Shown in pieces: positions 20,201-43,567 of a stretch of 64,000 nucleotides of DNA. Positions within the stretch are counted from its first letter, which is position 1. Each line of letters starts with the position of its first letter. Under the pieces are notes generated by a model. It searched no databases, was not told the DNA's origin, and worked only from the letters and a program-made list of their open reading frames with translations. The translations under genes and the position numbers were made by a program. The DNA lies in contig NW_006921541.1 of the NCBI RefSeq assembly GCF_000340215.1, positions 367,876 to 431,875 of the forward strand, written 5' to 3'. The DNA comes from Pseudocercospora fijiensis CIRAD86. Its lineage: Eukaryota; Ascomycota; Dothideomycetes; Mycosphaerellales; Mycosphaerellaceae.

Positions 20201-22450
20201 ATTCGAATAGTCTCTAGCCTATTAAGAAGCCTTCGACTAGCTACGATAAAGTTTTACGACTATACTAATCCTATAGTACTTCGACTTCGATAAGGAACTT
20301 AATACGTTTAGAAACTAATACTTCTAACGGTACGACTAGCGCCGTTCTCCTTTAGCTAGCGACCCTAGAAGATACGTAGCTATCTATAGCCTACCTCTTT
20401 AAGAAAATATTCTCTATAAATATATAATTACGATATCTACGATAAAGAACTCCTCGTAATCGTTAAGGCCTTCGAAGAATAGCGCCTAGAGCTCGAAGGC
20501 TCCGAATCGCTAATCTAGGTTAGCTCGGATTATAAGAATCTCGTCTACTTTCTTAAGAGCAAAATCCTTAGCTATAGGTAAGTATACTAGAGTAAGTTTC
20601 TTTCCTAGTTTAACTTCGTAATTTAGTATACGCTCGGTAAAGCAAATTTATAGGCCGACGTACCTACAAAGCGTAATAGAGACTCGCCTTTAGATCGAGG
20701 CCCGTAGCGTAAAGAATAGTCTATCCTTAAAGAGTATAACTTAAGCTAGGAACTATACGAGCTCCTCGGAGACGACTTTACTAGCCTAGAGCCTCTTATA
20801 GTATCCTTTATACTAATAGCCGCTCCCGCCTTTCTCGGAGATAATAATAGCTTAGACGACGAAGATACGAGCTTAGAAAGCTTAGATAGCGACTAGGAAA
20901 GCGAGAAAGAAGCATAGAACCTCCTCGAACCTACCTAGCTCGAGTAGTAGCTTACGACGGCGTACGCCGAAGACGCTTTTACTAAGGGCCTAATTTACGC
21001 CTTATATAACGAAGAATAGTTATACGAGAATATTTCTCTCTCGGAGTACGAGCTCCGTAGAATTCTAACCCTAGCGCCCTATATAACGTTTAGGAATACC
21101 CTCTACGTCCCGGATTTCGAAGATTTACGCGATTAGATTATACGTTCCGCTTACGACCCTCTTAGAAATAGTATATCCCGGTCGAGCTAAGATATTATTT
21201 TAGCTCTAGAAGTAGTACTACTAGCCTAATCTATACCGAGATATCGACCGATTCGTTAAGAACTACGTAGTATACCGTAGAGTAAAAGCAGATACGCGTA
21301 AGCCGTAAGGACTACTAAAACCTCTTAAAATCCCTCTACGACCGTAGTAGTATATTTTAATAGATTTTATTATAAGCCTACCGAAAGGATCCGACTTTAA
21401 TAGCCTCTAGTTTTAAAATATACTAGTCGTAGTCTACCGCCTTACTAAACGTAAGAAGGTATTAAATGCCTATAGCCTAATAGCGAAGAATACGGCTTAG
21501 GTCTTCTACCGAGATATATAGAAAGATATAGGCCTACCTAAGTTAATTATATCTAATCGCGGCCCGAATTTCGTTGCCTATTTCTAGAAGCGCCTCTACG
21601 AGCGACTAAAAATTTAAGCGCGCCTTCTAACGGCTTACTACCCGTAGACCGATAAGCAAACTAAACGGGCTAACGCTTAGATCGAATAGATTATTAGGTG
21701 CTTCTATAATTACTATTAAAATAACTAGCTAAGATTAACGCCTTCTATTAAATTTACTATTAATAATTAGGAATTAGCTACGACTTAGACTACACCCTTC
21801 TACGCTTCGACTAGATTTTACTCCCGAACCGGTATAGAACTAGTAGAAATCGAACTAAAGCCTCCGGTAAACGATCCTAAAAGAGACGCCGATACCTTCG
21901 CTCTTTAGATAGCCTAGACCTACTAAGAGCTCTAGAACGAGATAAGATATACCTAGGAAGTATACGAGTACTACGCTAATTAGTATAGACGCGCCGCGCT
22001 AGATTACTAAGTCGGAGATTACGTTTACCTCGACTTACGGTATATTAGAACTAACCGACTTTTAAAAAAGCTCGACTAGAAAAATCTAGGACCCTTCCGA
22101 ATTATAAAAAAATCGGTACGTACGTATACGAACTAGATCTCCCCGAGAATCTTAATATTTACCTAGTTAAACACGTTATTAACCTAAGAACCGCCGGAGA
22201 AATCGCGGACCCCGAAGACATTCTACTAATTCCGGAAGCTACTAAGGCTACCGATTAGACCGAAGACGAACCGGAATCTACCTTAGGTATAGTATAGGCA
22301 ATTATCGGATAGAGCTTTAGTAATACAAACTTCGGCAATCTTAACCCTCCCGAGTCCTAGTCCGTAGAGAGAGATATAGTAGGAAGGGTACTTAGACGAA
22401 GATACGACCTAGGAACCTCTACGCTATATTATCTTCGCCCGCGATAGACC
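17241..22450 (+). mobile_element. Ty3/Gypsy chromovirus coding region, RIP-inactivated (element 2)
   Basis: Plus-strand gag-pol broken by many TAG/TAA codons. In order: gag ~17,330-18,640 with a degenerate CCHC knuckle at about 18,447-18,505 (YIYYGIKGYITRLYLS, four expected Cys/His now Tyr); protease at ~18,786-18,840 (LINNSATGG, catalytic Asp replaced by Asn); RT ~19.4-20.1 kb with an intact YIDD at 19866-19877; RNase H ~20.3-20.65; integrase ~21.1-21.9, where the second core Asp reads IISNRGPNF (D to N) and the Glu survives; and a chromodomain-like end ~22,330-22,440 (EGYLDEDTT*EPL). The 5' LTR is probably the split family E repeat; no 3' LTR is seen, so the 3' end is truncated or rearranged. 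Confidence 0.8.
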
Positions 22451-22454
22451 CCGT

Positions 22455-22570
22455 AGTAGTTCGGTTTCCGAACTACTAAACGTATATAGTTTGGTTTCTT
22501 AGCGGCGAACTAGCTCCCTAGTTCCGGTTTAGTTTTTTCGAACTATATAGATTCCTAGTTTGAACTAGAG
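22455..22570. repeat. Repeat segment with hairpin, inverted relative to 43.73-43.84 kb
   Basis: TAGTAGTTCGG and CCGAACTACTA form an 11-bp inverted repeat around a TTT loop near 22,455-22,480. The wider stretch (TAGTTCGG...TTTGGTTT...CGAACTATATA) resembles the reverse complement of 43,735-43,840, and both copies border regions with GCCGGC arrays. The function is unknown; it could be an element end. Confidence 0.35.
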
Positions 22571-22580
22571 ACTGTATTAG

Positions 22581-22905
22581 TTTTACTATAAGGACACTCT
22601 TATTCGACTGCCGGCTACGATTGCCGGCTATAATAGTAACTCTGTTACATTTACTACGCTCTTTTGCCGTTACTAGGGCGTAGTTACCGTTGCTAGGGCG
22701 TAGTTGCCGTTGCTAGGGCGTAGTTTTGCTATAAGGACACTCTTATTCGACTGCCGGCTACGATTGCCGGCTATAATAGTTACTAGGTTGTATTTACTAC
22801 GCTTTATTACCGTTGCTAGGGCGTAGTTGCCGTTGCTAGGGCGTAGTTACCGTTGCTAGGGCGTAGTTGCTATTACCGGGGCGTAGTTGCCGTAGTTGCG
22901 AAAGC
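22581..22905. repeat. 143-bp tandem duplication with 20-bp minisatellite
   Basis: A block starting TTTTACTATAAGGACACTC at 22581 recurs at 22724 (period 143). Inside and after it, a 20-bp unit GCCGTTGCTAGGGCGTAGTT is repeated about three times (around 22,666-22,726) and three to four times more (around 22,806-22,880). Each long unit also contains a two-copy GCCGGC array. No gene is seen here; it separates element 2 from the next coding cluster. Confidence 0.7.
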
Positions 22906-23039
22906 TTACCTATATAACGTTACGTAGGCGGCAACAATTAGGGCTTCGCGATATTCTTACACTTTCAACTTCTTCCTCTATACCTATACCGACAATAACT
23001 GCTATACGCTACGCCCCCGCCCCTTTCCCTTACAATAGT

Positions 23040-24440
23040 AAGAGAGAAGCGCGCCGCGCGCTAAATAGAAGATAGAACTAAAGACCGCGAGTTTGTTTTG
23101 CCTAAGCGTCTAACTAAAAAGCGTAAGACTAAAGAGAAGTACTCTACGAAGAAGAATTCCGTACGAGACCGCGAGAGAAAGGATAAGATAGATAAGGATA
23201 AAAGAGTTAAGGATAAGAGAAGAAAGGCGCGGAATAAGGCATTCTATCGATAGCTAGCGCCTATAGAAAAAAGTGAAGGTTAGAATAAGAAGACAACCTA
23301 AGAGAAGGCTAAGAGGAGGAAAGAATTGCGGCTAGTTTTCGAGCGTAAAGTTCTAGTAGCGTAAGTCAATCTAGCTAGCGGCCGTAGCTAGTAGCTATAG
23401 CCGGTAGCCGTAGCCGGCAGCTATAGCCGGCATATTTTTCTTTAACACGTTAACTAATAGCATTTAGACCTATAGCCGCTACCTCTATCGATACGACCGA
23501 TAGTAACGGAGATGTTTAGATAGCCGAGAACAATAATACTAGAGTTTAGGATACCGCGATAGAGCTTAATGCTACGAATAAAGGAACTGAAAAAAGCGAG
23601 GAGATACTATACGTCGATCTAGTAACAGGTGCAGTCTTAGGGCCTAACGCTATAGACGATAAGCGCTAGGAGTAGATCGAGTATAGTTAAAGAGACGAGA
23701 TACTAGTAAAGGGCTAAGGTATAAGTCCTATTAATCTAGAAAATCATAGTTAAAGCTACTACGAAAAGCTAGCAAGGATTAGAATCGAGACTAGTCGTCT
23801 TTATATCCTCGATATAGAGTAGAAGTTTCTTTATTAGTATTAGAGCGAAGCCTTTACGTCTATAAAGGCAAAGTAGCTTGCGATTAATGCGATCGGGGCT
23901 AGGTATCTAGGGACGGCAGAAGTGTTACTATAGGAGGAAGGGGTATAGGTAATTATTCTATGCTCGGTATATATAGCCGGCGTTCGTAGCCGGCAGATAC
24001 TAACAGTTAAATAGAAAGCGTTTCTCGAAGGCAGAGTGCTACTACTATATGAAATCTTTACTAAGGCAGAGAGGGCTTATATCCGGAATCTAAGCTGCTA
24101 GTAGGATAGGTTAGCGTTAGAATTCTCTAAATCTCTATATAAGCCTCCGAAGGATTACCTATTTTAGCGATACGGCTTTATCTCGACTACTCCGCAGGCA
24201 CCTAAAGAAGCTCGAGCGCTCTTTAAGGTCTTTACTAAGAAGCGGAAGGAGTTCGAGGATTAGGATTGGTTAATAGAGCTATTAGTTAGTCTTAGGTTTC
24301 GTAGTTAGACTCGGCCTAAGCATTTGCTTATCGAGTGTCTTATACCGAAAGAGGATAGATTAAGACTAAAAACGAGCTTAGATTCGTTAGGTATAGTAGC
24401 TCGGTTCCGTTAGTAGGAGAGAGCCGCCGTATAGAAGGCA
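23040..24440 (+). pseudogene. Unidentified gene X, Lys-rich N-terminus, intron with GCCGGC array
   Basis: No known family is recognised. Exon 1 (from about 23,040 to 23,360) encodes a very basic stretch (LPKRLTKKRKTKEKYSTKK). Intron 23361-23467 has a GTAAGT donor, CTAAT branch site and TAG acceptor; its removal joins the codon GC|A and keeps frame with IAATSIDTTDSNGDV. The frame continues to a second GCCGGC array at 23,977-23,996 (in frame or a short intron) and on to about 24,440, including RPKHLLIECLIPKEDRLRLK. Stops are TAG/TAA only, as expected from RIP. It lies directly upstream of the hAT gene on the same strand and could be an accessory gene of the same element or an unrelated host-derived gene. 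The start codon is not determined. Confidence 0.45.
23361..23467 (+). other. Intron with GCCGGC array (gene X)
   Basis: 107-bp intron: GTAAGT donor, three CCGG cores at 23401, 23414 and 23427 (period 13), AACTAAT branch site, CATTTAG acceptor. Splicing restores the frame through a GC|A codon. Confidence 0.6.
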
Positions 24441-25343
24441 AAATTCAGGTAGTTAGGGTAGCTAGGAAAGAAATTCTAGTAGTTAGGCTAGCTAGGGTAG
24501 TTAGGAAAAAAAATCTAGTAGTTAGGTAGCTAGGAAACAAAAAAAAAGGTAGCTAGCTATTTACTACCTAGCTGTTCCTAACGATACGATGCTATAAAAG
24601 AAAGGGTGTTTCCCTATAGCTACTAGTATATATCTACTACTCCTAAGTCCTTACCTTACCGTACGAAACCTTAAAACATGCCGACCGACATTGTATATAC
24701 ACTAGGCGCTATACTAGGAAGGGTAATAACGAGACGATAGTCGAAACAGTCTAGTATACGAGCGAGATTGCGACAACGTCGAGAGGAGGTCGTATACTTA
24801 CCTTCGAGCCTATCGAGTCCTAGACGACGATTAGGGCTAGATTTATCCTCTCCGAATCCTAGTAGTAGGAATTCATTATAGGGTACTACTACCTAGTCCT
24901 TACCTTTACGGAGTCTAAGTAGAAGGTTGTTCGGAGATATAAGAATATCGAGTATTAACCCGGAAATCTTCGAAAAGGCTAGCTAGGCGTATCTTTAGAA
25001 ACCCGAGTATATAGAGCAGTTCAATTAATAGGTCTATAAGATATAGTTCCCTTTATACTTACGTTCGAAGGAGTATAAACTCCGGAAGTACTCGATGCGA
25101 TAGGGGAGTAAGGAGCGAACGGACACATTCTAGAAGTTCTTTATAGAGGGGGCATTACACCGTTATACGACTTCTCGACTTAAAGGTTAACTAGTAATTG
25201 TCTATAACTTCTACGGTTTAATCTTAAAACACCCGAAACTAGGGGATAGGAACTTATCGCCTACGAACTATCTCTATTCTAAACGGTATCGGGAATCTTA
25301 AGGAGAGAGGAGAGTTAATATAGATATAGCGTTCTAGAAAGAG

Positions 25344-25461
25344 GTACGTCTTCTAAAATGCCGGCTATAGCTACCGGCTATAGCTGCCGGCTATAGCTGC
25401 CGGCTATAGCTACCGGCTATAGATTCCGGCTATAGATTCCGGCTACTTAAATCAACCGTAG
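25344..25461 (+). other. Intron with seven-unit GCCGGC array (hAT gene)
   Basis: 118-bp segment from GTACGT to CCGTAG. It contains CCGG cores at 25361, 25374, 25387, 25400, 25413, 25426 and 25439, an exact 13-bp period. Phase 0 on both sides (KE|RSS). The unit is inverted relative to the arrays in the other introns, and read on the minus strand the array ends CCGGCATTTTAG. Confidence 0.55.
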
Positions 25462-26416
25462 AGGTCTAGCTAATTATTATAGGCTACGCTTAAGGAAGCT
25501 CTAGGATTGAAGGCTACCGATTTCTCCCCCGAAGACTTTAAGCAACTAGTAAACGAAATGCTAGCTATAAACGGTCTTCCGGAAGACTTCTACGAAAGGG
25601 AGTCTATATAGAAGATATACCTATATCTTATAAACTACCCTCCCCTATTTCTCGGCGCGATAACCTAGCGTATTATATTCGAAAAGAATAAAGAGGCTAC
25701 GTTAGACGATATTCGGGAGATCCTCCGTAATACTCGCCGAGTAGCTATTGCTATTAATAGCTAGTTAAGCCGGACTATAAGAGCCTCCTTCCTCTCGATT
25801 ATGCTATACTTTATCAATTCGGATTAGAAACTCTAGGAACTTATAATCGGATTCCCTGAAATTCTAGGTTCCTATACTAGTAAGGATATAGCGAAGCTTG
25901 TCTATACGGCAATAGATAGGGTTAGCGTAATAACGAAACTAATCTCGATTACTACGGACAACGCTAGTAATAATCGAACATTGTATAAGGCGTTATATAT
26001 ACAATTCACTCGCATATGTCTTTAAAATTACTAATTGTATCGATAGGGTCGAGTACGTAGAGGAGATTATAAGGTCTATAATCTAGCTTAATCTTCCGAA
26101 TGTTAAGCTCGCTACGATTCCGGATACGTACGACAATACGTACGATAATAACGATAAAGAGGAGCCTATTAATAGCCCTAGCCCTAACGAATCGGAGCCG
26201 ACGTCGTTACTAGTTACATCCCTATAGAAGTTTCCCTACCTCGCTTATATAGTTTAAATCGCGATCCGAGCCCTCTTTAAGACGCTTAAAATTGCACTAT
26301 TAAACGACGACTAATAGAAGATCCTAGATAAGGATAAAGCAAAGTCGAAAGTCGAGAAACTTATTATAGCAATAAGACAGGATAAGGTAGAGAGCCTCGC
26401 TCTCGTTTTGTATAAG

Positions 26417-26485
26417 GTATAACTTTTATACGTAGCCGGTACCTATAGCCGGCAACCTAGTATAGTTCTAACTCTTTTTCTCTAG
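26417..26485 (+). other. Intron with GCCGGC array (hAT gene)
   Basis: 69-bp intron with an AAG|GTATAA donor, CCGG cores at 26436 and 26449, a TTCTAAC branch site and a TCTCTAG acceptor. It joins VLYK to LRRLVIYTNSSL in phase 0, and the downstream frame continues into recognisable hAT sequence. This is one of the clearest cases of the array lying inside a real intron. Confidence 0.75.
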
Positions 26486-27833
26486 CTTCGTCGTCTAGTA
26501 ATATATACGAACTCGAGCTTATAGAGATATAACCGATTCGAGGCTATTTAAAAGAACCTAATCGAGCGCCCTAAAACCGATGCCTAGAATATCGTATAGA
26601 ATAAGCGATAGCAAAAGCGGCCTCCTTAGCGCCTACTCCGTTTTACCTAAGACGTTAAGACCCGGTTCGATTCAACTTTCTATATAGTTACGAGGGGATA
26701 TACTTTACGTACCGCTCTCGAGATCTATTAGAGTTCCGAGGGTATTAAGTAGCTCGGCCTTACCGCCGCCGAATAGCGCTAAGTAGAGTATCTCGTCGAT
26801 ATTAGTAAGCATTACGCGAAGGTTACTGCTACGATTAGAAGAACCCGAGGACCGACGATCTACCTTGTCTTTACGTACTATAACTAGCTCTTTAACGAGC
26901 TCGAGGAAACCGTAGCTAAGCTAGCTAAGAAGAGCGTTCCCTAGAAAGTAGCTATAACGAAAGCTATAGACACCTCCTATACTAAGTTGCATAAATATTA
27001 TAGTACTATATTTAACTCGTTCGGAGATATCTATAGCGTTACGTACTTGCTTAACCCGGTAGAAAAGGATATATACTAGCAGAGGCCGGAATAGAAGGCG
27101 GACGAGATATAGCCGAAGCATTACTAGACTATTCTAGAAAAGATGTTCTACGAGCGTCGGAAAGAAACTAGTCTAAATGCAGCTCCTATAAAGAAAAAGA
27201 AGGTTTAGAAGGCTCCGATATTATACCTGTTTCGTAGGTAGGAAGTAGAGGCAGAAGAGGAAGTAACTACTAAAGTAAATAAAGAAGAGTTCGATCTCTA
27301 TCGGCGCGCGAGTAAGTATAAACCCGTAGGCTCGGAAAGAGGGCTAATAATCTCTAGATCTTACCGGTCTTCTAGACGAATTCGGAGACGATATTCTCGC
27401 TATATAGTAGCGGTTAGAGCCTAAGTTTCTAACGATAGCGTCGGTCGCTCGGGACGTCCTCGCTATCCCGAGCGTAGGTATAGGCTATAAGAGGTCTTTT
27501 AGTATCGCTCGTTACTAGGGCCGCTTTAATCGAATATACTCGCCTACTACCTTCGAATCTATTATAGTATTTCGATACTATCTCCTCTACTAGAATCGCT
27601 AAGGCAGGTTACTAAAGATTATACTAAAGGAGTTAATCGAGGAATTAGAAAACCTTAAGATCGAAGAAACCTAGGAACGCGAAGAGAATACGAAATTTAG
27701 TCTAAGCGAAACCCTAATTAGCGATAACGAAGAGGAGGAGGGCGGAGGTAGAAGGCGATACCGGGTCGAGAAGCGGAAACGTATATAGGCTTAGAGCAGC
27801 TTTAAGGAGACGAAGCGTTTACGTATAAGGTAA

Positions 27834-28473
27834 TATAGCCGGCGTATATAGCCGGTATATGTCCGAAATGTGTTTCGAATTCCTAGGACCTAAACAGACT
27901 AGTTGCTATAGTAACCGACCCCGCTTACCTACGGACTATTTCTAATTCTCTATTCGCTCTTCCTCTCCTTCTTCCCTTTCCCTATATTCTTAAAGATAAA
28001 CATACCTTAAGGATTCGGCTCTTCGGGCCTTCCTAAGCCGGCTGCCTCCCCTTCCTTAAGCTACTATCCTTTATTCGAATCTAACGATAACCTAATAAGG
28101 CGGTTTAATAGAAGACTATTTATTCTAGAAGGCAAGAAGCATTAATGTCTCCTTACGATTATATGCTTATTAATTTTCTAGGTCCTACCGATATACCCTC
28201 GTCGCCTAAACGCGTAGATAAATATCTTTAGAGGCTAAAGGGCAAGGGTAAAGCAAGCTAAGTATAGGGAGACCGTAGCGAGAACGAGATATCGGAAGAG
28301 TAAGGCTCTCTATAGTATATACGAAGGAAGGGGGTTCCTCGGAAAACAGTACCGAAAAACAAGAAGGCTATAGGTAGACAGGAGAAGGCTAAAAAGAGTA
28401 GGCGGACGAAGACTATCGCGAAGAAAAGTATCTTTCTATTAAAAGAAAGGGAATAAGGCAGGACTCGACGATA
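27834..28473. other. Spacer after the hAT gene, with GCCGGC array
   Basis: Begins with a two-unit array (CCGG at 27839 and 27852) just after the hAT stop codon. The 28,200-28,470 part is rich in Lys/Arg codons on the plus strand and may encode the N-terminal tail of the following H3-like gene (KGIRQDSTIKKRRFK in frame), but the start is not determined. Confidence 0.4.
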
Positions 28474-28785
28474 AAGAAGCGGCGCTTTAAACTAGGTACT
28501 ATTACCCTTCGCTAGATCCGGCTTTTCTAAAACAAAAGAGGGACCGAGCTTTTAATCCCTAAGACTCCCTTCTAGCGACTCGTCCGAGAAATTATATTAG
28601 ATTTTCGGTCTAGTATGCGATTTACGGCTAAGGCGATTAGTGCTCTTTAGGAAGCTACGGAGGCATTTCTCGTAACCGAGCTTAAGCTTTTAAACCTCCT
28701 TACTATCTATACGAAGCGGGTTACTCTTCAAAATAAAGATATATAGCTTCTAGCTAAAATTCGGCGTCGGTTTATAGCGGATTAG
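28474..28785 (+). pseudogene. Histone H3-like gene 1 (histone-fold), RIP-damaged
   Basis: 104 codons align by eye with the core of histone H3: KKRRFKLGTITLR*IR (H3 RYRPGTVALREIR), GTELLIPKTPF*RLVREI (STELLIRKLPFQRLVREI), RSSMRFTAKAISAL*EATEA (DLRFQSSAIMALQEASEA), then NLLTIYTKRVTLQNKDI*LL ([20 protein letters not shown]). Five internal stops, TAG or TAA, fall where Gln or Glu codons would sit. It has no intron at the GT|V position. The insertion in the N-terminal helix (LF*NKRGTELL) and divergent loop 1 are more like a variant or CENP-A-type H3 than a canonical one, but I cannot assign a class. It sits ~640 bp downstream of the hAT gene, same strand. The start is undetermined. Confidence 0.75.
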
Positions 28786-28887
28786 TTAGAAATTGTATTT
28801 AGTCGTTAGATTAACCTAGGAGGAGGCCTATTTTCGCATCCTTTTACCGGCTATAGGTGCCGGCTATATTTCTGATGTTATCTCCGC

Positions 28888-29405
28888 GCCGTCCCTAAAT
28901 CTAAGGTACGAAGTAGAAACCTAGCGCTCTATATTTACCCGGCTATTACAGAGACGAGCTATATTCAGATTAGTTTCTTCGTATATCGCGACCTAGCGGG
29001 TAGTAAGCGAAAGGGCGATAGAACGTTTATAATACGTCTCTATTTAGACCTAAAACATAAAGGTCCTAAGGAGCCTTAGCATCCTAACTACAAGGAGATT
29101 CTTTAGTATTAGCACTTTGATCCTCTATACTACGAGGTAGATAGTAAGCCTACGAGAGAGAAACTTTAACGAGAAATTCTCTATAATACGTAGCGCTATT
29201 ATATAGCTATAGATGCGTACTAAGTCCGGCAACTCGAAGAAGAATTAAGACAGCGTATTAGCGACCGAGGAAGAGATCGATAGTATACTAGTAGAGTCGA
29301 GGTCTTATAAGCGAAGTATAAGATAATATAGGCTCTTAGTCGTATAGAGTAACGTACTATATAAATAACTAGGCGTACTACTCTTATTCACTTACGACCT
29401 ATATC
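28888..29405 (+). pseudogene. Unidentified coding block Y between the two H3-like genes
   Basis: A plus frame of about 170 codons, broken only by TAG/TAA: AVPKSKVRSRNLALYIYPAI, then KRKGDRTFIIRLYLDLK, then HFDPLYYEVDSKPTREKL and a charged helical tail (VRQLEEELRQRISDRGRDR). I do not recognise the family. It follows H3-like gene 1 by about 100 bp with a GCCGGC array (CCGG at 28847 and 28860) between them, so it could be a downstream exon of that gene or a separate gene. Confidence 0.4.
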
Positions 29406-30077
29406 CTAGGATACTCTTCTCGTACTTTTTATACTCTTTTCTAATACCTTACCTATAAGCGCTCCGCGATAACCGAGTGAATATAAGCTATAGGGTTTCT
29501 GCTCGGTACCTTAGCCTCCGAGATAGGGCGGAGTTGAATTTAGAGCGATAGCCGGCACTCGTAGCCGGCATATAGAGACGGTAGTAGGCCTTTTCCTACT
29601 AAATAACTAGCTTGTTTAGTATAGCCTACCTAATATTTCTTATATTTACTAGCAATAGGCCTAGGTTACTTATAAGATTACTATAGCTAGTAAAGGCATT
29701 ACTAAAGAATATCTATACTATAGTAAGATACTATTATTACGCCGGCTATTTATTAAAAGGAGGCTTTCGCCTATTACTATGCCGGCTATATATACCGGCT
29801 ATATTTCAAAGTCTCCCGTACCTGCCTTTTTTAGCCGTACCTGCCTTTTTTAGCCGTGCCTGCCTTCTTTCCTTACTCTAACGTTACTATAATATAGGCT
29901 TGCGCGAAGCTTACTCTGTTGCCTAGCGATACCGCGATACTACCGCTATATTCAACCTTCGTATCGATACCTATACCTCTACGCTCTATATCTACTACCT
30001 CCGTAATACCCTCGCTCCGCGCGCGCCTTCGTATACCTTCGTAACGCACTTTTTTCCTTAATTCGACGACTTTTATA
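29406..30077. repeat. Spacer with three GCCGGC arrays and a 19-bp tandem repeat
   Basis: No gene is recognised. CCGG cores occur at 29552/29565, 29742 and 29782/29795. A CCTGCCTTTTTTAGCCGTA unit (19 bp) is repeated about three times at ~29,818-29,875. The stretch precedes the second H3-like gene and would include its promoter. Much of 29,880-30,060 is CT-rich. Confidence 0.5.
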
Positions 30078-30750
30078 ATAGCGAGTCTACTTAACTAAGT
30101 TACGACGCCTCGTAAGAAGGGACCTAGTGCTTCTACGGGTCGTAATAAGACCGGAAATAGTAGAACGAGTACAGTATATTAACGTAAGAGGGCTGCTACT
30201 ACTGCCGCTAGCTCCGGTACTAGAAAGGGCGTCGCGAGTAAGGCTCCGCGTAAGACAACGGCGGGCAAGGCTCTACGTAAGACGACAACTAGCGCTTCTA
30301 CTGCTAGTAGCAATCGTACGAAGCGTCGATAGCGCCTAGGAAGTAAGTCCTATTTATAGCCGGTAGCGTAGCCGGTAGCGTAGCCGGCAGCGTAGCCGGC
30401 ATTCTTACTGTCTTTTTACTAATCCTTCTTTAGCCGTAGCCCTCCGTAAGATTCGGCAGTATTAGAAGAGTTCTTAGCTCCTAATCCGTAAAGCTCCTTT
30501 CTAACGACTTATTCGCGAAATTGCCTAGGATTATAGAACGGACCTTCGCTTCTAAGCCTCCGCGATAGGCGCCCTTTAAGAGGCTATAGAAGCCTACCTA
30601 GTTCGTATCTTCGAATATATGTTTCTCTTCTACCTCTTTTCGGACTATACTAATACTATTTTAGCGGTCAACCTTATAGCTATCTACGCGAAGCGTATAA
30701 CGATTATAGATAAGGATTTTAAAGCACTCGATCAGATTCTAAAAGGCTAG
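30078..30750 (+). pseudogene. Histone H3-like gene 2 with long basic tail, RIP-damaged
   Basis: Exon 1 (30078-30342; the first codon ATA is probably a mutated ATG) encodes an 88-residue basic tail including KAPRKTTAGKALRKTTTS, resembling the H3 N-terminal ARKSTGGKAPRK repeats but about twice the usual length. Intron 30343-30433 (GTAAGT, TTACTAAT, CTTTAG) carries a four-unit GCCGGC array. Splicing creates the codon A|CC and the sequence RLGTVALRKIRQY, which matches H3 RPGTVALREIRRY. Exon 2 gives KAPF*RLIREIA*DYRTDLR and ASAIGAL*EAIEAYLV; then a second intron-like segment 30621-30664 (CTAAT, TTTTAG; phase off by one), and NLIAIYAKRITIIDKDFKAL. This is closer to canonical H3 than gene 1. The C-terminal stop at 30748-30750 may itself be a RIP product. 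Confidence 0.82.
30343..30433 (+). other. Intron with four-unit GCCGGC array in H3-like gene 2
   Basis: 91 bp with a GTAAGT donor, CCGG cores at 30360, 30372, 30384 and 30396 (exact 12-bp period), a TTTTTACTAATCC branch region and a TTCTTTAG acceptor. Its removal restores the highly conserved GTVALR motif, strong evidence that it is a spliced intron. Confidence 0.85.
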
Positions 30751-30947
30751 AATGTCTATATTCGAGACGGTGCTAGGTAGGATAGATTCTCTAGTAGAAA
30801 GGATATTCGTAGTGTTATCTATAAGCTTTTCTATATACGAAATAAGCCGCTATTATACGGCGCTATATACCGCGCTCTAAATACTCTCTAAGTATATGTA
30901 TATAGTATAGTATGCTTTATTGGCCGTACGGAATAGAAGTCTCCTAA

Positions 30948-31030
30948 AATCCCGTTAGTACTAAGGAGTAAAAAGGCCGGCTACGCTACCGGCTACGCTG
31001 CCGGCTACGCTACTAGCTACGCTGCTAGGT
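30948..31030 (-). repeat. GCCGGC array with minus-strand 3' splice-site context
   Basis: Units at 30977, 30989, 31001 and a degenerate one at 31013 (period 12). Read on the minus strand, the array is followed by CCTTTTTACTCCTTAGTACTAACGGGATTTTAG-like sequence, that is, a TACTAAC branch site and TTTTAG acceptor, leading into a TAG-only-interrupted frame (DFYSVRPIKHTILYTYT). The 43,605-43,660 segment is a close match. Probably the 3' half of an intron in a minus-strand gene. Confidence 0.5.
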
Positions 31031-31096
31031 TTTTCAAAGAACTAAAAGAAGATAGACATTCCGGTTGATTTGTATTAGTTTAGATTTTTATAAAAA

Positions 31097-31165
31097 GAAA
31101 ACAGGGAAAAATAAGGAAGGTTGAAGAGCCTAATAGTTATAGTTATAGGCACTATCCCTGTTTTC
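31097..31165. repeat. Inverted repeat GAAAACAGGGA / TCCCTGTTTTC
   Basis: Perfect 11-bp arms at 31097-31107 and 31155-31165 separated by 47 nt. No coding role is seen. It could be part of a small hairpin or of a degenerate MITE. Confidence 0.5.
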
Positions 31166-31199
31166 TAGAGTATATTATATACCTGCCTTCGCAACTCTA

Positions 31200-31614
31200 C
31201 CTAATACTCCCTCTAAATATCCTTATACTCTACCTACTAAAAATTCAACTAGGTACCTAGACCTGTAGCTGCCTCTATATCTTTTACTATCTTCTATAGG
31301 TTAAAGGCCTCTTCTATAGCAGCCTCTACCTCCTTATATAATACGAAGTTACTACCTGCCCTACCCTTTATATCTCCTAAATAACTAAGAGTTCTAAGGA
31401 ACGAACTAGCATTCGGCCTTAGTATAGCGAGTAACTAGTAGAACGTTCTATAGAGCTGCCTTATAGCTCTTTTATATACTATACCGATACCGAAGGAGGA
31501 GCTATCCTAGTACTTAATGTTGTCGAATAGTTTAGTAGGAAAGTGTATAAACTTCTTAAGGAGGAGGACTTCTAGGGAAATCGATAAGTTCTGCCTAGAT
31601 CTAGATAAAGACAT
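31200..31614 (-). pseudogene. Unidentified minus-strand reading frame
   Basis: The ATG at 31614 (minus) opens MSLSRSRQNLSISLEVLLLK, followed by about 120 more codons broken by TAG only (for example YLGDIKGRAGSNFVLYKEVE). I do not recognise it. It lies between the H3-like cluster and the LINE insertion and could be the 5' part of a gene interrupted by RIP. Confidence 0.35.
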
Positions 31615-31622
31615 TCTACTAA

Positions 31623-31702
31623 GCAGTTAGGGAATTGAACCGTAAACGAAAGGATGAAATTTATACCTAAGGAGTGCAGTTTCCGAACTGAACTATAATG
31701 CC
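31623..31702 (-). tRNA. tRNA-like sequence, probably a pseudogene or SINE head
   Basis: Read on the minus strand: GGCATTATAGTTCAGTTCGG resembles an A box, and GGTTCAATTCC is an almost perfect B box. AGTT/AACT can form a D stem and a TTCAATT loop is flanked by mostly paired T-stem bases. The anticodon stem does not fold and the acceptor pairs only partly, so it is not a working tRNA. It may be the pol III promoter of a short interspersed element. Confidence 0.35.
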
Positions 31703-31760
31703 TTATATGTGTGTGTATATGCTTTTGATTAGTTAGTGCCCTTAGCTAATTGTCTATAGA

Positions 31761-31774
31761 TTTGAGGTTATATA
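31761..31774. repeat. LINE target site duplication, left copy
   Basis: TTTGAGGTTATATA, identical to 43554-43567. It directly borders the GATA tail at the LINE 3' end. Confidence 0.8.
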
Positions 31775-33272
31775 GATAGATAGATAGATATTTCATTTGC
31801 CTATTGTAGTGCCTTTCGGCCTATGCAGGTCTGTTTCTATATATTGTTTTAGGTAGGAAACTAACTTAGTTAGTAAAAACCTCCCTCCTGTCCTATTTAT
31901 AAGTGCTAATCTTCCTCGTTTTCTTGTTTTCCTTCCTCTAGGGTAGACTAGTATTATAGTTGTTACCCTCTAACTACCTTGCCTGCTACCCTACCCTTCT
32001 TTCCCCCTCTTCTTCCCTCCTTCTTATCTACTCCTTAGTTTCCCTTGCTAGTGCGAATTGTTGTACAAATCCCTGTTTAATAATCTACTTTACTATCCTC
32101 TTTAGGTCTTCTTTGCTCTAGATTAGCTTATCGTATTCCCTTTCTATTGCTTTTAGTCTCTAATTACTTCTACCTTCTAACTATTAAGGGCAGACTAGTA
32201 GTATATACTTAGGGTTCTAAGATTGGTAGCTATATTAGTAAGCTCTGCTTTCAATTCCTAGGACGTTTCTTCTAAATAGGTAAGATCTAAGTCTAATATG
32301 TTTAGATCTGATTTGGATAGCTAGGCTTGCCTCGGCCCTATTTAGGTCCTTATAGAGCTAGTAGTTGTATTAACTAAATTTGATTAGTGCCTTTAGGGTT
32401 CCTAGTCTAACTTGTGTTTTGTTCTATTCCTACTCCTATAGGTATCTAGCAATTGATTCGGCTAGGCTTTGTTTCTCTCCCTTTAGCTTGTCTTCCTTTA
32501 GCCTTATATTTAGTCCCTAAAGCTCTTTCTCTAGCATTTCTCTTATTAAGACTCTATATTGCTCTAGGTCTTTAACTTTCTAGGGAGTTATTTATAGTCT
32601 GTCTCGCCTCCTAGTCCTAATGCACTAGGCTTTTATCTTATCTAGTGCCTTTTAGATAGTCTATTAGGCTAGGTATTCTATTGTCTTTGCTATATATTAG
32701 TGTCTTAGTCCCTTAAAGTATTGTTTAACTAGTAGGATCCCTAATTCTATCTCTACTACCCTTATTAGTATAGTTTTATATACTCCTAGGATTTTCTTTA
32801 GGCTTTAGGTTTAGGACCTACTAACTAGTTGCTTAATCCTCTTTAGTATCTTCTCCTAGGCTGTCTATATCTATGCTCTATATAGCATTGCTAGCTTGAC
32901 AATTGCTTTGTATATAACTTTAGCTTTCTCGAATATAGCCCCCTATATAGAGGCTATAAGCCTATTAATAGATTGTATATTAGCATCTGCCCTCTGCTTT
33001 GCCTTCTTTACTTATAGTCCCTAATTTAGTTTTGGATCTAGCTAGATCCCTAGTACCCTAAGCTCTACTAATAGTTAGGTTTTAAAGCCTTAGATAGTAA
33101 TTGATTGCTTTATATTATAGGTTGATTTAGCCTTGCTAAAGTGGATAAGCTAGTACTTTTCTAGGGCGAATTTTGCTCTATACCTCCTTACCTATTTTTT
33201 ATACTCCTAGTGCTTCTCTTCTAGGATCTTACAGTTGGTTTCTATTATCTTAGACTAGGCTAGGATGTTTGT

Positions 33273-33284
33273 GTCGTCTACAAA
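33273..33284 (-). other. LINE reverse transcriptase active site FVDD
   Basis: The minus strand reads ...GFVDDTNIL, the family's F/YxDD catalytic motif. The matching position in the second LINE copy (51005-51016) reads FVDN. Confidence 0.85.
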
Positions 33285-34247
33285 CCCTAATACTAATATG
33301 TTTTTTAATTCTAGGAGTAGGAGTAGGTCTGCTATAAAGATAAGGAAGAGGATTAGGGAGAGTGTTAATCCTTAGGGGATTCCCTTTTTAGTTAGTATTG
33401 GGTCTGATTTGAATTTGCCTAGAATAAGCTGTATTGATCTTTCCTATAGGAAGGACTAGATAAATTAGACTATCTAGTTTGGTATAGCTTTCTATTTAAG
33501 TATATATAGGAGCCTTTTATAGGAGATATTGTTAAAGGCTCCTAAGATATTAAGGGAGAGGAGGGTTACTACCTAGTTTTGACTATAGTGCTAGATATGC
33601 TTAATCTGTTCTATAATTAGTTCTATAGCTGTTAGTATTAACCTCTTCTTTCTTCCCCCTATCTAGCCTTTAGGAAGGATATTCCTTTCCTCGGTAAAGG
33701 TTATTAGCCTTTTAGCTACAATTTTTTCTAGTACCTTGCCTATTATATTAAGTAGGGCTATTAGTCTATAGGCCTTAAGCTGTATATAGTCTTCCTTCTA
33801 GGGCTTCCTTAGCACTACTGTTAGGGACTTCCTAAATAGTCTTAGGTAGTGTCCTAGTGCTAGGCTTTATAAAAAGATATTAGCGAGTGCTAGGGCTAGC
33901 CCCTTCCTATATGCTTTTAGAAGTTTGTTGTAGATCTTGTCTTCTCCTAGTGCCTTATTGCCTAGAATTTTCTTTAGGATCCTTTTAATAGTTTCGGGTT
34001 TAACCTAGGTGTCTCTTAGTATACCTAGTAGTAGAGTCTCTTATTCTTCCTCCTTTATATCTAATAGGTCTGCTTATACTTTTCTATAGAAGAAGTGTTA
34101 GCCTAGGGCTCTTGCTTTCCCTTCTATTATAGTCTACATTTGTCCTTATTAGTCTATAATGTCCGGGAATTGTAGTAGTATATCCTTATCCTGTTTAGGT
34201 CTCCTTACCTATTTAGCTATTGATAAAGACGATAATAAGATTCTTTA

Positions 34248-34347
34248 NNNNNNNNNNNNNNNNNNNNNNNNNNNNNNNNNNNNNNNNNNNNNNNNNNNNN
34301 NNNNNNNNNNNNNNNNNNNNNNNNNNNNNNNNNNNNNNNNNNNNNNN
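34248..34347. other. Assembly gap (100 N)
   Basis: Exactly 100 N, the conventional size for a scaffold gap of unknown length. It lies inside the LINE reverse transcriptase region, 101 bp left of the Gypsy LTR. Coordinates across it are therefore not true distances. Confidence 0.98.
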
Positions 34348-34448
34348 TCTTATCTTTCTTAATCTAGATCTTCTTTTCCTAGTAGGCTTTGTTATAGTTG
34401 TCCTATACTTCCTAGGTATAGGTTTGTATCTACTACCTCCTAGCCTTC

Positions 34449-34794
34449 TGTTACGGTTACTCGCGACAGATCGTTAAGTGACTTCTTATCACGTACAAGC
34501 CGAGGCTTCTTTAGAGAGGCTAACACAAGCGGGAGGCAGAGATAGAATAATTGGTATAAAGGTAATTCCAATTAGTAAGTAGGTAACATAAGTTGAACGC
34601 CTCGAGCTATAAGGGCATCCCGGCGTTCCTAAATACAAAGGAGACATCTTGTCTGTAGTCGTAAGCGACGTAAGCGACGCTGTCGCTCTCGACCGCTCCT
34701 ATCGCTCCTAGTAAGATAGAGCGATAGCTTAGCCTACTAGTCTTAGCGTCGCTCTAAGATTATATAAGGACTCTAACCAATTAGATCCGTAATA
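34449..34794 (-). repeat. 3' LTR of element 3a
   Basis: 346 bp from TGTTACGG to CCGTAATA; the terminal CA has become TA. It aligns with 40927-41272 end to end. Preceded by CCTTC. Confidence 0.92.
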
Positions 34795-34939
34795 CTATCC
34801 CCCTCCTTAAGCGGGATAGTCCCTTATTCCGGAACTTTCTAATTCTAACTTCTTTGCTATACTAAAGTTATTAAAGGACTTGTCTTCTCGTTAGCGTAAG
34901 GAAAATATCGTAAATAACATCCTTACCGACTGCCTCGAA

Positions 34940-35443
34940 ATGCCGATCCGCTACTTTTATTACGAACAGGCCGATAAATCCTACAAAGTCGATCTCCGTT
35001 CCGGTCGCTGCTCCGAGTACGCCCTATACGGCTAGTCCTATAATATACAAGTTACTCGTATAGAGTATGAAAAAATCCGGAAGGCGCGCCTAAAGATAGC
35101 TAAAGATCTCGAAGCGGCCGAAGAGGAGGAGGACCTCCTTACGCGGAAGCTTTTCGAGCACCGCGTAAAGGTCCGTCGCTTACGCAAGTCGTTGCGTATA
35201 AAGGAGGATCGGGAGGTATAAGCTCTTAAGGTAGAGGAAGCCTCTATTTAATAGGCGGAGGAGCTCGAAAGAGAGCTAGGCTCTTCGCCTATAGAGCCGA
35301 TAATATTCTCGTTGCCTACTAACGAGCCGTTTCCCCTAGATAGCCGATTATAGATGTCGCCTTATAACTAGAGTCGTCTAGATAGGACGTCCTAGCCTAT
35401 CTCTGAAATTCCTAGTAGGAGTGCCGAGAGTCTAGTATCCTAA
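34940..35443 (+). pseudogene. Antisense cysteine-cluster/coiled-coil frame in element 3a
   Basis: A 168-codon plus-strand frame, opposite to gag-pol, from ATG 34940 to TAA 35441-35443, with internal TAG/TAA only. Near its start, MPIRYFYYEQADKSYKVDLR followed by SGRCSEYALYG has Tyr at positions spaced like C-x2-C-x6-C-x8-C-x2-C, with one Cys still present; TGC to TAC by RIP explains the rest. It continues with a long charged helix (EKIRKARLKIAKDLEAAEEE; HRVKVRRLRKSLRIKEDREV) suggesting a coiled coil. Such short zinc-cluster plus coiled-coil proteins are, as I recall, common hypothetical proteins in ascomycetes, but I cannot verify that here. Function is unknown; nucleic-acid binding is a guess. 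Confidence 0.6.
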
Positions 35444-38400
35444 AGGTATATATTTTCAATGTTTCCTATCTATTTTATCTTCTAGCTAGTTGGTCTAGTA
35501 GTATGATTCTTGGCTATAAAAGACATAGTTGCTAGATATGCTATTAGAGTCCCCGCTCCTCGAGCTATACTAGTCATTTCTTTTTTGTCCGGTTTTGATA
35601 TTTTTTAATCATCTACTAACAGTTCTATAGGTTTTCTTTTGGTTCCTAGGTGTTTTCTGAATGTAGGTATCCTTTCCATTTAATAAGGTATTTCTAACCT
35701 TGCTAATCTAGGATTTCCTCGACTTTAAACTCGTTTTCTTCCTTAGGTTGGAAGTGAAATGTTTCTTAATACGGTATTTCGGCGTCTGTAGGTTCTAGTA
35801 TAGAGATATAGAATACTAGGTAGATTTTCGCGTCGTCCGGTAGTTTGAGTCGGTAATTAACTAGTCCTTTAGGCTCATTAATTAGAAATGGCCCGACTTT
35901 AACGTAGTCTAGTTTCTTAGTCGATCTCCGGGTTTTCAGATTCTTTGTTAGGAGGTAGACCTTATCCCCCTTTTTTAGCTAAGGTGCTATTTTTCGTTTA
36001 GCATTATATAGTCCCGTAATCTTTTCTTAAGACTCGGCAATTGCCCTCTGCAATTCTTTATATACCTGCTTTAAGTCGTCTAAAGCGACTATCGCTTTAT
36101 CCGCGTATAGATGCTATAAATACTGTTCCCCGAATAGCTGCGGATGTTTCCTAAAATTAGCGAAGAATGGTGTCTCTTTCGTAGTCTCAGATTGTTGGTT
36201 GTTTAGTGCAAGTTGTGCTATAGGTAGTAGCGATGCCTAATTGTTTTATGCGTAATTAACGTAGTGCCGTAAGTATACCTCTAAGGCCTAATTCTTGATT
36301 TCCGTTTAGCCGTCTATCTATAGATAGTATGCCGTTAATAGCTTATACTTAATTCCAAGTGTCGCTGTAAGCGTCTTCTAGTAGTTTGATATAAAGAGCT
36401 TGTCTCTATCCGTAATGTAGGTCTTTAGAAATCCGTAGTATCGTATAAGTCTATCTAGTACGAGGTATCCGAGTTGCTCTACCGTACTTGCTTCGTTAGC
36501 AGGAATGAAGTATATATATTTCGTAAGCCTATCGACTATAATAAGTATTATGTCGTAGCTATGTCCTATAACCGGATCCTTAGACTTCGGTAGCTTCGTA
36601 ATAAAGTCTATTGTAACTTCGTCCTATGGTTTATCTAGTAGCGTCCTGAATTAGATATATCTATATCTAGCGTGTCTATTAGCCTTGTTACGCTAGCATT
36701 GTGGACATTTCTTAATATATTCTAGGACTCGTTGTCGCATATATAGGAATCCGAAGCTTCGCTTAACTAGTTCTATTATCTTTGAAACTCTAGGGTGTCT
36801 ATTTTCTAGTCCGTCGTAGTATTGTCGTATACACTCCGTAACTCGTTCCTTAGGTACTTAGTATTTCCTATATTCGATTGGGAACTATTCTTCTATATCC
36901 TAAAGAACTCGTATAATATAGTTGAATTCTTTTATGTTAGCACTAAGGCTTCCGTCTTGGTTTGCTTTTAATATCTGCTACTGTACTGGTTCGTAACCCT
37001 CTATATAGTCGCTACGGCGGCTTAGTGCGTCGGCTCGTCCGTTCTCGCGTCCTAGGATATAGCGGATTTCGAACTTATACTGCCCTAGTAGCTCCGACTA
37101 GCGGGCCTATCTTCGGGTTAGTACTTTAGTCGTAGTAAAGTAAGTTAGATTCTTATAATCAGAAAGAATCGTAAGACTTAGTGCTCCTTCCGCGTATACT
37201 CGCTAGTATTGCAGTAATATAACTATTGCAAGTAGCTCCTTATTATAGATGTCGTAGTTCTATTCCGCGGGTAACATCTTTCTCGAGTAATAGGCTACCG
37301 GGTATCGTTTCCCGTTATACTCCTATATAAGGCATGCTCCTATAGCCCTATCCGACGCGTCTGTTTCTATCTAGACCGCCTTACTCCTATCGAATAATCG
37401 TAGCGTTAGCGCAGAAACGTATTGCTTCTTTAGCTACCTAAACGCTTCGTCTTCCTTCGTGCTCTAGTTCTATTGCTTATCTTTCTTTGTAAGCTCCGTA
37501 AGGGGTACCGCTGTCTTAGAGTAGCCCTCGATGAATTTTCTGTTATAGTTAGCTAATCCTAGGAATGATTGTACGTCTTTAACGTATATAGGCGTTAGCC
37601 ATTCCTATATTAACTTAGTTTTTTCTAGATCGATCCTAATTCCTATAGTGCTAATAATAAATCCTAGGAACTTAACTTCCTTCTTATAGAATTCGTATTT
37701 CTTAGGTATAGTCTTAAATCCTACTTAAGTAAATCGTTCAAAGACGTCCTACACTATTCGTATATAGTCCGCGAGAGCTCCTTTAGTATAGACTAAGATA
37801 TCGTCTATATATGCGATAACGTATATATCTAGAAGGTCTCGGAGGACTTCGTTTACGAGGTCTTGATATAACGCTAGGGCATTTGTAAGTCCTATAGGCA
37901 TAACCAAGAATTCGTAAAGCCTATATCTTGTTCGGAATGCTGTTATCTATTCGTATCTAGCTGCTATACGTATTGCGTAAAACGCATCGCGTAGGTCAAT
38001 CTTCGTATACTAGTCTAATCTAGTTAATCGGTCTTGCATTTCTTCGATGTTCGGTAGTAGGTACCGATTCTTAATTGTAATGTCGTTAAGTCGTCTAAAA
38101 TCGACTACTAGCCGTCCTTCGTCTAATCCGGCTTTCGGAACGAACATTACTAGTAAGGCTGCCGAGGATGTCGACTTCCGTATTTAGCCTTTTTCTAATT
38201 TCTCTTTTAGCTACTTGTCTAGGGTTTTAAGCTCTTTCTTAGACATTGCGTATAAGGGTCCCTATAGAGGCTCTTTCCTAGGCTGTAAGTGTATCTTATA
38301 ATCCTATAGTTAGTGTTTAGGTAAGGCTACCTTGCCTCTCTCCTCTTTAAAGAGTCGCTTCTACTTACTATACTCTTTAGGAATGTCTAGGTCCGAGATT

Positions 38401-39820
38401 CTAGTTTTATTCTTCGATAGTGTATAACTTCTATCCTTCCCGTAATCATTATTATAACCCTCCTAACCTAACGGTAGTGTCGATCCGGGTTGAATACGGT
38501 TCTCCGTAATTCCTATCGACGTAAACGTCTTACGAATCGCCCTGCGTTTATTAATCTCATCTGCCTACGAACGCTGCCGCTATATAGGTTGAATGCCGAT
38601 TATATAGTCGCATTCCTTAAATGTAAGTACTCCTTTTCTCTAGTCTACGACTAGGTTATACTTTCTCAACTAAGGTATACCTAATACAATGTTATAACTA
38701 GCTATATTAGTAACATCTAAGACAATCTCCTCGTAGTGCTATTAAATAGCTAGTAGTAACGGTATCGTTTCTCGTTCTATACTAGGTAGCGGTAACCTAT
38801 CTACTGCTATGAGTTTATACGCTCCTTCTCTTCTACTTCGGGTTGCGATCCCTCGGCTTTTAACGAATAATTCGGAGGCAAAGTTCCCGCTCGCTCCGGA
38901 ATCTATTAATGCACTCGTCGGGTGCCCGTTAACGATAACTTTCGTACGGAAGACTGCTATTAATGCTTAAGCGCTTTCGGTATTAAGGAACTCTCTTAGA
39001 ACGCTCTAATCTAGAGAGTTAGTCCGTTTCCCGACTAATTAGTAGCCTAACGTTGTTCTAACTAGTTACGGATCCGTAGTCCTACCGTTCGTGCTTCTTC
39101 GGTATATAATTTTTCCTCGAGGGTATCGTTATATACATCCCGTCCCTACGCTACTATAGCCTTTCGGTATTGCTAATTTAATCGCTAGACCGTCTAACGT
39201 ATATCTTGAGTAATAATCGTCCTTTCGTCGGGTAGGACGTATCCGTAGGGCGTAATTATACTTCCTATCGGTACTCGCTCCGTAATGAAGTTATAGTACG
39301 TATAGTCTATAGGTATCCGGGGGTAATTCTAGAATTTTGCCCGTAAGCTTATCTAGAAATAATTAAATTAGATAGGATCGACCTTCCGTTGTCCGTTAAC
39401 CTTTAGAAACATTTCCTCGTATTTGCGTACTAGATATAAGGCGATTGTTCGCGCTACTATAGGTATATCTATTATAAACGTAAGGATCGTATCGTCGTTA
39501 ATCCCGAATTCGTCTTTACTTTCTTTATTCGTAGTTTCTTCCTCGGTATCTAGACTTCCTTCTGAATCTTCTTACTATTCCTCCTTTTACTAAGGGGATT
39601 CCGGTACTTCTAGGATAGCTCCCAACTCCTCCCCGGGAGGGAATAAAGCTTCCGGATCTCGGTTTTCTTTATCGTCGGTATCTAAGCAAGATTTATCAAT
39701 CGTTTCTTCTTCTAACTAAGATTTCGCATCTTCTCGTACGAGTCGCCTAATCTAAGGGAAGAATCCTACTTCTACTTTAGCAGAATAATGAATTTAGTAT
39801 TAGTCGTCGTAATAGAATCT

Positions 39821-40396
39821 CTAGTAAAGGGCTCTATATACGGGTTCTTGTCGTCGTGCTATTATATAGATCTGTCGTAGCTCCTTCTTTACGACCTCTA
39901 CGTAGGTCCTCGGCGCGTTATTAATAGAGTATAGCTCTACTACTATTCGGTAGCCTTCTCTGCCCGAGTCCTTTCGTTGTATTATATTGAACTGTTCGCG
40001 TCGCACTATATTCTTACCGCGGCAGTTCCGTGCTATATAGCCTTCCTTACTATACGTATAGTAAGTCAATCTTCCTACTTTCTTAGGCGAACTCTTGCCT
40101 TTTCTTCCTTTAATTGCTCGACCCTTCTAGGTAGCGTCTAGCTCTATTAGTTGCGTACCGTAGTAGTTGTTCCCTTTTAGTTTATCGTAGGTACTATAGT
40201 TTCGTCTATTATCGTATCTAGGAGTATAACTAGCTTTTCTAGAAGTCTTAGAATCGTAACGTCGTTCTAAAGCTCGTTCGTAGAGCCTATCGTCGAGATC
40301 GATCGTAACCTTAACTAATGTTCCTATATTATCTATTTTTCTACCGTCGCGTATAAGCTCGTCTTTAACGTTATCCTTAAGACCTCGCCGATACAT
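39821..40396 (-). pseudogene. Gag fragments of element 3a
   Basis: Two open stretches, 40396-40127 and 40069-39821 (minus), belong to one gag. The first is the charged region ending near KLKGNNYYGTQLIELDAT. The second begins with a CCHC knuckle reading YYTYSKEGYIARNC, in which the first two Cys and the His are Tyr. Nucleic-acid binding would be lost. Confidence 0.8.
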
Positions 40397-40926
40397 TGTT
40401 ATAAGAGCTTCATCGTCCTAATCCGTAAGTTAGGCGTATTCCTAAAATTTGGCGGCGTAATCGGTATATAACCCCTTCTAAGTCAAATATTAGATAACCC
40501 TAACTGCGGTAGCAACTTCGTTAGAAGATCTAAAGACCTTCTTTATCGTACGCTTAAGATTTTCGTAGCTTGCGAAGATTCTATCCGAATTGTCGGTCCC
40601 GTTGCTATCTAGATAGGTCCTAAGAAATAGTTTAACCTAATGCTAAGCCCTGCCTCGTATAAACGTCGTTGCGAAGACTAGCTTTAAGTTATCTTAAACC
40701 TAGTTGAATATGAAATACATATCTATCTAGCTAACCTAGGTATCGAATTTGTCTCGGTCGCCGTAATAAAAGTCTAGCTTTCCGATCTTGAGAGAATCGT
40801 TTCCGGTATAGGTTCCGAGTGCATTGCTAGCACTAGAGGTAGTACGTCGAGTACTACCTATCTCGCTAGGGGCGGGAGTTCCCCTTCCGACTTATAATAA
40901 GGCACTTATCCTAAGGGCGTTTAAAG

Positions 40927-41272
40927 TGTTACGGTTACTCGCGATAGATCGTTAAGTGACTTCTTATTACGTATAAGCCGAGGCTTCTTTAGAGAGGCTA
41001 ATATAAGCGGGAGGCAGAGACAGAATAATTAGTATAAAGGTAATTCCAATTAGTAAGTAGGTAATATAAGTTGAACGCCTCGAGCTATAAGGGCATCCCG
41101 GCGTTCCTAAATACAAAGGAGACATCTTATCTATAGTCGTAAGCGACGTAAGCGACGCTGTCGCTCTCGACCGCTCCTATCGCTCCTAGTAAGATAGAGC
41201 GACAGCTTAGCCTACTAGTCTTAGCGTCGCTCTAAGATTATATAAGGACTCTGACTAATCAGATCCGTAACA
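40927..41272 (-). repeat. 5' LTR of element 3a
   Basis: 346 bp from TGTTACGG to CCGTAACA, with intact termini. Followed by the CCTTC target duplication at 41273-41277. Confidence 0.92.
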
Positions 41273-43553: not shown

Positions 43554-43567
43554 TTTGAGGTTATATA
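43554..43567. repeat. LINE target site duplication, right copy
   Basis: TTTGAGGTTATATA, identical to 31761-31774. It borders the LINE 5' end only 16 bp upstream of the ORF1 start codon, so the 5' UTR is very short or slightly truncated. Confidence 0.8.

Follow-up and report, generated by a model that had tools for sequence, protein, structure and literature searches.

The DNA analysed here, a stretch of 64,000 nucleotides from Pseudocercospora fijiensis CIRAD86 (the window), contains one dead copy of a published, high-copy fungal hAT DNA transposon with two histone H3 variant genes, which we call H3-1 and H3-2. We favour, at a probability of about 0.55, the reading that both H3 genes were kept as coding genes while the element lineage was mobile, and that each insertion was destroyed later by RIP. 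The element itself has already been described (PMC6710886); what is new is an intron in H3-2, insertions and deletions of the kind expected for coding sequence and a transposase dimerisation domain, and from these comparisons we have moderate confidence that the element encoded histones rather than carrying histone debris. A sequence-only reading of this DNA had suggested that a mobile element, possibly a hAT, carries the H3 variants, or else that a duplicated H3 had been trapped and mutated by RIP; the first suggestion is supported, as both genes lie between the inverted repeats and occur together in 19/19 copies. Beyond that suggestion, it can be seen that both genes are inside the hAT element's own ends, that H3-2 has an intron and that the family is high-copy.

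The H3-carrying hAT element and its copies

The element in the window is made up of 22445-31774 and 43554-43839, with inverted repeats at its ends and an 8-bp target duplication, GCCCGCGA, at 22437-22444 on the left and 43840-43847 on the right. The left terminal inverted repeat (22445-22464, + strand) is placed by the identical start of copies that have different flanks, and the right repeat at 43820-43839 closes the element; the repeats are of the type TAGACCCCGYAGTRGTTCGG, and the two in the window are identical at 18/20 bases. Comparison of copies shows that the main part (22445-31774, + strand) is separated from the 3′ end (43554-43839, + strand) by a later insertion at 31775-43553 that is not part of the hAT, and the two flanking parts overlap by 14 nt when matched to an unbroken copy. 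Remnants of a reverse transcriptase, a chromodomain and a Tf2-1-like SH3 domain lie on the minus strand in the first part of this insertion. Matching 8-bp flanks were found for the window, L012, L017, L026, L009, L013, L018 and L021, and also for L010, there within one base of the end. Where both ends were mapped, the element measures 9,517-9,938 bp in subfamily A (n = 6), 9,132 bp in subfamily C (L021) and 8,600 bp in subfamily B (L010). The ends and the target duplication are features of hAT elements and fit the published family.

The genome (73,937,190 bases in 30 contigs) was searched with the Pfam Histone profile, and 150 of the 772 candidates were scored. In-frame stops were present in 148/150 scored matches, the two exceptions being the host H3 gene on contig 6 and a gene on contig 5 that reads as CENP-A. 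We compared 20 loci, namely these two host genes and 18 loci with H3-like repeats that were taken from the listed profile matches and picked to cover different length classes. The window and the 18 repeat loci give 19 copies in four subfamilies: A (the window and 10 further copies), B (L010, L015, L016, L022 and L023), C (L020 and L021) and D (L027, which is homologous in its 3′ part only). H3-1 and H3-2 are both present in 19/19 copies, 18 of which had been selected by a histone-profile match, and they lie on one strand, downstream of the transposase. Drawing on the 150 scored H3 candidates, 14 of 40 scored H3-2 places were matched by eye to H3-1 places on the list, and the two then lie 1.66-2.40 kb apart. 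All copies examined are dead; no intact (living) copy of the element was found in this genome, and no H3 transcript was seen.

The stops in the H3 genes had been put down to RIP. Damage of this type was indeed found, with a TpA/ApT ratio of 1.88 in the element vs 0.56 at the gene-rich left end of the window, and at seven fold codons CAA or CAG is kept in some of the 19 copies where others read TAA or TAG. This change would explain many of the stops, not all, the others facing GAG, AAG, GAC, AAC or other codons.

The transposase and other element frames

A hAT transposase had been proposed beside the H3 genes, and one is present, though frameshifted and broken: it runs through several frames at 25465-27605 (+ strand), with a dimerisation region at about 27348-27605 that gives a weak Dimer_Tnp_hAT match (E 0.07) in the joined read-through of the window. 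Of the 84 genomic matches to this domain (PF05699), five precede a listed H3-1 by approximately 1.0 kb, four of them above Pfam's cut-off, and a protein search with the transposase returned one distant match, which carries PF05699. For DUF659, 22 genomic matches were found, none of them adjoining a listed H3, and there was none in the element of the window, where RIP damage may mask it. Translated in six frames and scanned with Pfam, the element in the window gave only Histone and a sub-threshold CENP-T_C match. Upstream of the transposase, 23601-25380 may hold further reading frames without a Pfam match; transversion rates between subfamilies are low there (4-7% for A-B and 1-2% for A-C).

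Both genes encode H3 folds

H3-1 has a basic N-terminal tail at 28146-28494 (+ strand) and a histone fold at 28495-28785 (+ strand). The candidate ATG at 28146 is missing from some copies, and the tail carries a 1-nt deletion that is private to the window copy. H3-2 has a tail-encoding exon at 30090-30342 (+ strand), for which a start codon was not found, and continues after an intron with a histone fold at 30434 to about 30747 (+ strand) that has a 16-residue insertion. Both folds were assigned from Pfam, PDB, structure models and identity. With stops read as X, the frame holding both H3 genes matched Pfam Histone at E 1.8e-38, the H3-2 fold of the window matched at E 2.9e-19 and H3-1 of the sister copy L013 at E 1e-23. 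Against PDB sequences the two genes matched histone H3 (best E 1.8e-24 and 9.4e-25), which bears out the earlier claim that each stretch translates, through stops, into an H3 fold.

The predicted structures show the H3 helices, with an additional helix at the 16-residue insertion in H3-2; the models are modest (mean pLDDT 77, pTM 0.48) and the input alignments contained H3s. Their best structural match was nucleosomal H3 (E about 1e-6), with TM-scores of 0.45-0.52 and rmsd of 10-18 Å among the matches listed.

The two genes had been described as strongly different from each other, and their folds are indeed only 44-57% identical. The H3-1 fold is 83.5-90% identical between subfamilies, 51-57% identical to host H3 and 44-50% to host CENP-A; for the H3-2 fold the corresponding values are 66-85%, 58-71% and 49-57%. 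An origin from CENP-A was considered and rejected, as the element H3s are no nearer to host CENP-A than they are to H3, either in identity or in the tree described below. Host and element proteins share the histone fold, whereas the tails of the element proteins are longer.

H3-2 has an intron and a repeated tail

Comparison of copies identified an intron of 91 nt at 30343-30433 (+ strand) of the form GTAAGT...CTAAT...TTTAG. The donor GTAAGT is present in 19/19 copies and the TTAG end in 18/19, the exception being L014, in which an 11-nt insertion displaces the end; the length of the intron ranges from 69 to 116 nt among the 19 copies. When the flanks are joined they read ..RLGTVALRKIR.., in register with ..KPGTVALREIR.. 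of host H3. Intron 2 of host H3 interrupts the Gly codon and the H3-2 intron the Thr codon that follows; the two share their phase and are offset by one codon. H3-1 lacks introns at the positions used in host H3. We also considered whether the 16-residue insertion is a second H3-2 intron; this was rejected because it is in frame, free of indels in all copies and without a good donor.

That the second gene has a long H3-like tail, as had been noted, proved real when the exons were compared. A unit resembling KTTAGKAPR, in which 7/9 residues are those of host H3 positions 9-17, occurs once in 4/11 and twice in 7/11 subfamily A copies. None of the 8 B, C and D copies has the unit under this strict pattern, but looser repeats, for example KQTTGKAPRKTTAGKTPRK-like runs, occur in the tails of the B copies. 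Shuffles reached the best 9-residue agreement with the host tail in 3 of 1000 cases for L013, 5 for L010, 122 for the window and 462 for L020, and the likeness to K9-R17 therefore exceeds composition shuffles in 2/4 tested copies.

Coding constraint between subfamilies

As RIP makes transitions, measures that are blind to it were used, namely indels and transversions. All 11 coding indels are multiples of three, compared with 3/13 in the H3-2 intron (Fisher p 1.5e-4). The 11 comprise four H3-1 events common to several copies and seven events in the H3-2 exon, five of which are shared and two private. When four private H3-1 indels are added, 12/15 are multiples of three (p 0.007 vs the intron). 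Five further indels in the first part of the H3-1 tail of L027 (8, 15, 20, 13 and 13 nt) were excluded because L027 is non-homologous there; counting them as well gives 13/20. No indels were found in the fold of H3-1 or H3-2 among the copies.

Transversions were counted between subfamilies that are few and not independent, with A represented by the window, L009 and L012 and B by L010 and L023. In the A-B comparison there were 83 transversions at 1913 sites of the transposase, 10/285 in the H3-1 fold, 30/309 in the H3-2 fold and 26/201 in the intergenic stretch 28815-29690; in A-C the counts were 6/291 for the H3-1 fold, 14/298 for the H3-2 fold and 83/707 for the intergenic stretch. The H3-1 fold is thus slower than intergenic 28815-29690 in both A-B (p 1.5e-4) and A-C (p 8e-8), whereas for the H3-2 fold this is true of A-C (p 4e-4) but not of A-B (p 0.31). 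By this measure the H3-1 fold is conserved like the transposase, and the case is less clear for H3-2. However, 30800-31774, which is not known to be a gene, changes as slowly as the H3-1 fold in A-C (15/939), but not in A-B (33/298), so that low change alone is no proof of coding, and it was because of this stretch that we lowered our confidence in selected H3 cargo to the value given above.

An excess at third codon positions was seen in A-B, both for the two folds (11/8/21, p 0.03) and for the transposase (25/18/40, p 0.01). It was absent from A-C (H3-1 4/0/2, H3-2 5/4/5), and over all subfamilies it was not significant (7/1/6, p 0.11; 14/11/20, p 0.25; folds together p 0.08). We consider that the indel pattern and the kept intron provide the stronger evidence for coding and the transversions the weaker.

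Alternative explanations

The published account of the family (PMC6710886) reads the H3 genes as an intronless host H3 transcript or retrocopy that was captured passively, carried along in functionless copies and inactivated by RIP, the mode of capture being inferred there from absent intron sequence. It agrees with the lack of an intron at host positions in H3-1 and with the stops in nearly all scored matches. The H3-2 intron, being present in 19/19 copies, contradicts origin by transcript capture for that gene on the sequence evidence, and passive carriage is also disfavoured by indels that keep the frame and by the low transversion counts between subfamilies; we regard this account as a serious possibility that probably does not hold. 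A different concern, that the similarity is due to chance or that ordinary host H3 pseudogenes merely neighbour a hAT, found no support and is excluded by the Histone matches (E 1e-19 to 1e-38) and by the position of both genes inside the ends of an element with which they recur in different flanks. Neither lone host H3 homologues nor mere chance similarity, the outcomes that would have spoken against H3 cargo, were seen.

The two genes might instead have separate origins: H3-2 would derive from a genomic H3 gene with introns in the host line, and H3-1, perhaps through horizontal transfer, from a different H3 lineage that had already diverged. A first protein search with H3-1 led to intact divergent H3s; its best relative was P0001 (E 3e-26, 45% identity over 76%), an intact metagenomic H3-like protein on an unplaced contig of 1189 bases. 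An H3-1 profile search, in which the best 7986 candidates by common words were scored, was dominated by long plant and animal H3 gene models. In a tree of 24 rows, 14 of them database rows picked from 108 matches, each of the two element genes has a clade of its own (100/100 in both cases) and P0001 groups with H3-1 at 95/91; H3-1 and P0001 have in common the unusual ..AKLRRRF.. end, while P0001 is three residues longer in loop 1. The position of the H3-2 intron near host intron 2 also fits two origins. Against this, 14/21 inner branches of the tree are weak, P0001 was chosen for it as the best match, with long-branch effects possible, and its contig is short and unplaced. We hold two origins to be a tentative idea, more probably wrong than right.

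A possible role for the element H3 proteins

If H3 cargo was selected, the mobile lineage would have encoded its own H3 variants, with H3-2 spliced, rather than dragging along a dead retrocopy; both genes would have been kept as protein-coding during the divergence of the subfamilies, and every insertion would then have been destroyed by RIP. The H3 proteins may have acted for the element in chromatin, for instance as components of nucleosomes. In filamentous fungi H3K9 methylation is associated with silencing, and the K9-R17-like repeats of the H3-2 tail suggest that it might offer itself to, or compete for, host H3K9 methylation. A more elaborate proposal is that the hAT lineage long encoded a functional pair of divergent H3s, one spliced, acting against or through H3K9 silencing, with the K9-R17-like segment of the H3-2 tail multiplied nine residues at a time to serve as a decoy or to mark the element's own chromatin; this we think improbable, if worth stating.

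Were the H3 genes selected, a eukaryotic DNA transposon would have used histone variants of its own, the pairing of hAT and H3 reported from two Dothideomycete orders would reflect an adaptation that recurs rather than a pair of accidents, and transposon manipulation of host nucleosomes would be testable in living relatives, such as through H3L of Pyrenophora. The H3-2 intron would in addition correct the published origin by transcript capture for at least one of the two genes.

Comparison with published systems

Dhillon et al. (2019; PMC6710886) described an H3-carrying hAT family in Pseudocercospora fijiensis and the Cercospora/Sphaerulina clade, with 784 H3-like copies in 471 hAT elements and the original H3 on scaffold 6. 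The element in the window belongs to the same family, as judged from the features described there: a length of about 9.5-9.9 kb, 20-bp inverted repeats, 8-bp target duplications, RIP damage, a pair of H3-like sequences with a 16-residue insertion in the second one, and a host H3 on scaffold or contig 6. Several points differ from the published description as far as it covers them. It gives no intron, whereas here H3-2 has one in every copy and H3-1 has none at host positions; it gives DUF659 and no dimerisation domain, whereas we found a dimerisation match beside five listed H3-1 genes and no DUF659 there; it gives no internal repeats, whereas arrays of AGCCGGYA are present here; its length range does not extend to subfamilies as short as 8.6 kb; and its passive retrocopy stands against the coding constraint seen here.

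A separate hAT with an H3-like gene, H3L, has been described in Pyrenophora tritici-repentis by Manning et al. (2013; PMC3538342), where H3L is transcribed, as seen in ESTs. Likened to ours from its published description alone, that element also has an extra ORF and a divergent H3-like gene between inverted repeats, but it is about 5.6 and 2.3 kb long, largely intact and has one H3 gene; Dhillon et al. (PMC6710886) report no sequence similarity between their element and this one. By analogy, transcription of H3L makes a role for H3 cargo more plausible. A literature phrase search for transposon-encoded histones, covering few subscription papers or preprints, found none.

Internal repeats and neighbouring genes

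The motif AGCCGGYA occurs 31 times in the window compared with 4.6 expected, the largest count in 100 shuffles being 11, and 30/31 sites are inside the hAT element (22609-31006 and 43635-43654). The sites are mostly arranged head-to-tail with a 13-bp period (12-bp nearer the 3′ end), between the genes and in the H3-2 intron. In each of six further copies, 24-28 AGCCGGYA sites were counted inside the element and 0-1 in the flanks examined. It is possible that these arrays are bound by the transposase or that they represent a mobile minisatellite. Just within the left end of the element, at 22578-22893, a 143-bp tandem unit that contains 20-bp repeats is present twice.

Two genes were also recognised near the left end of the window. 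A RINT-1/TIP-1 family gene lies at 2013-4298 on the minus strand (PF04437 E 2.8e-187, ORF 2013-3716), and an RNA-dependent RNA polymerase gene at 5078-9367 on the plus strand (PF05183 E 1.1e-62, ORF 5515-7218) adjoins the RIP-degraded block.
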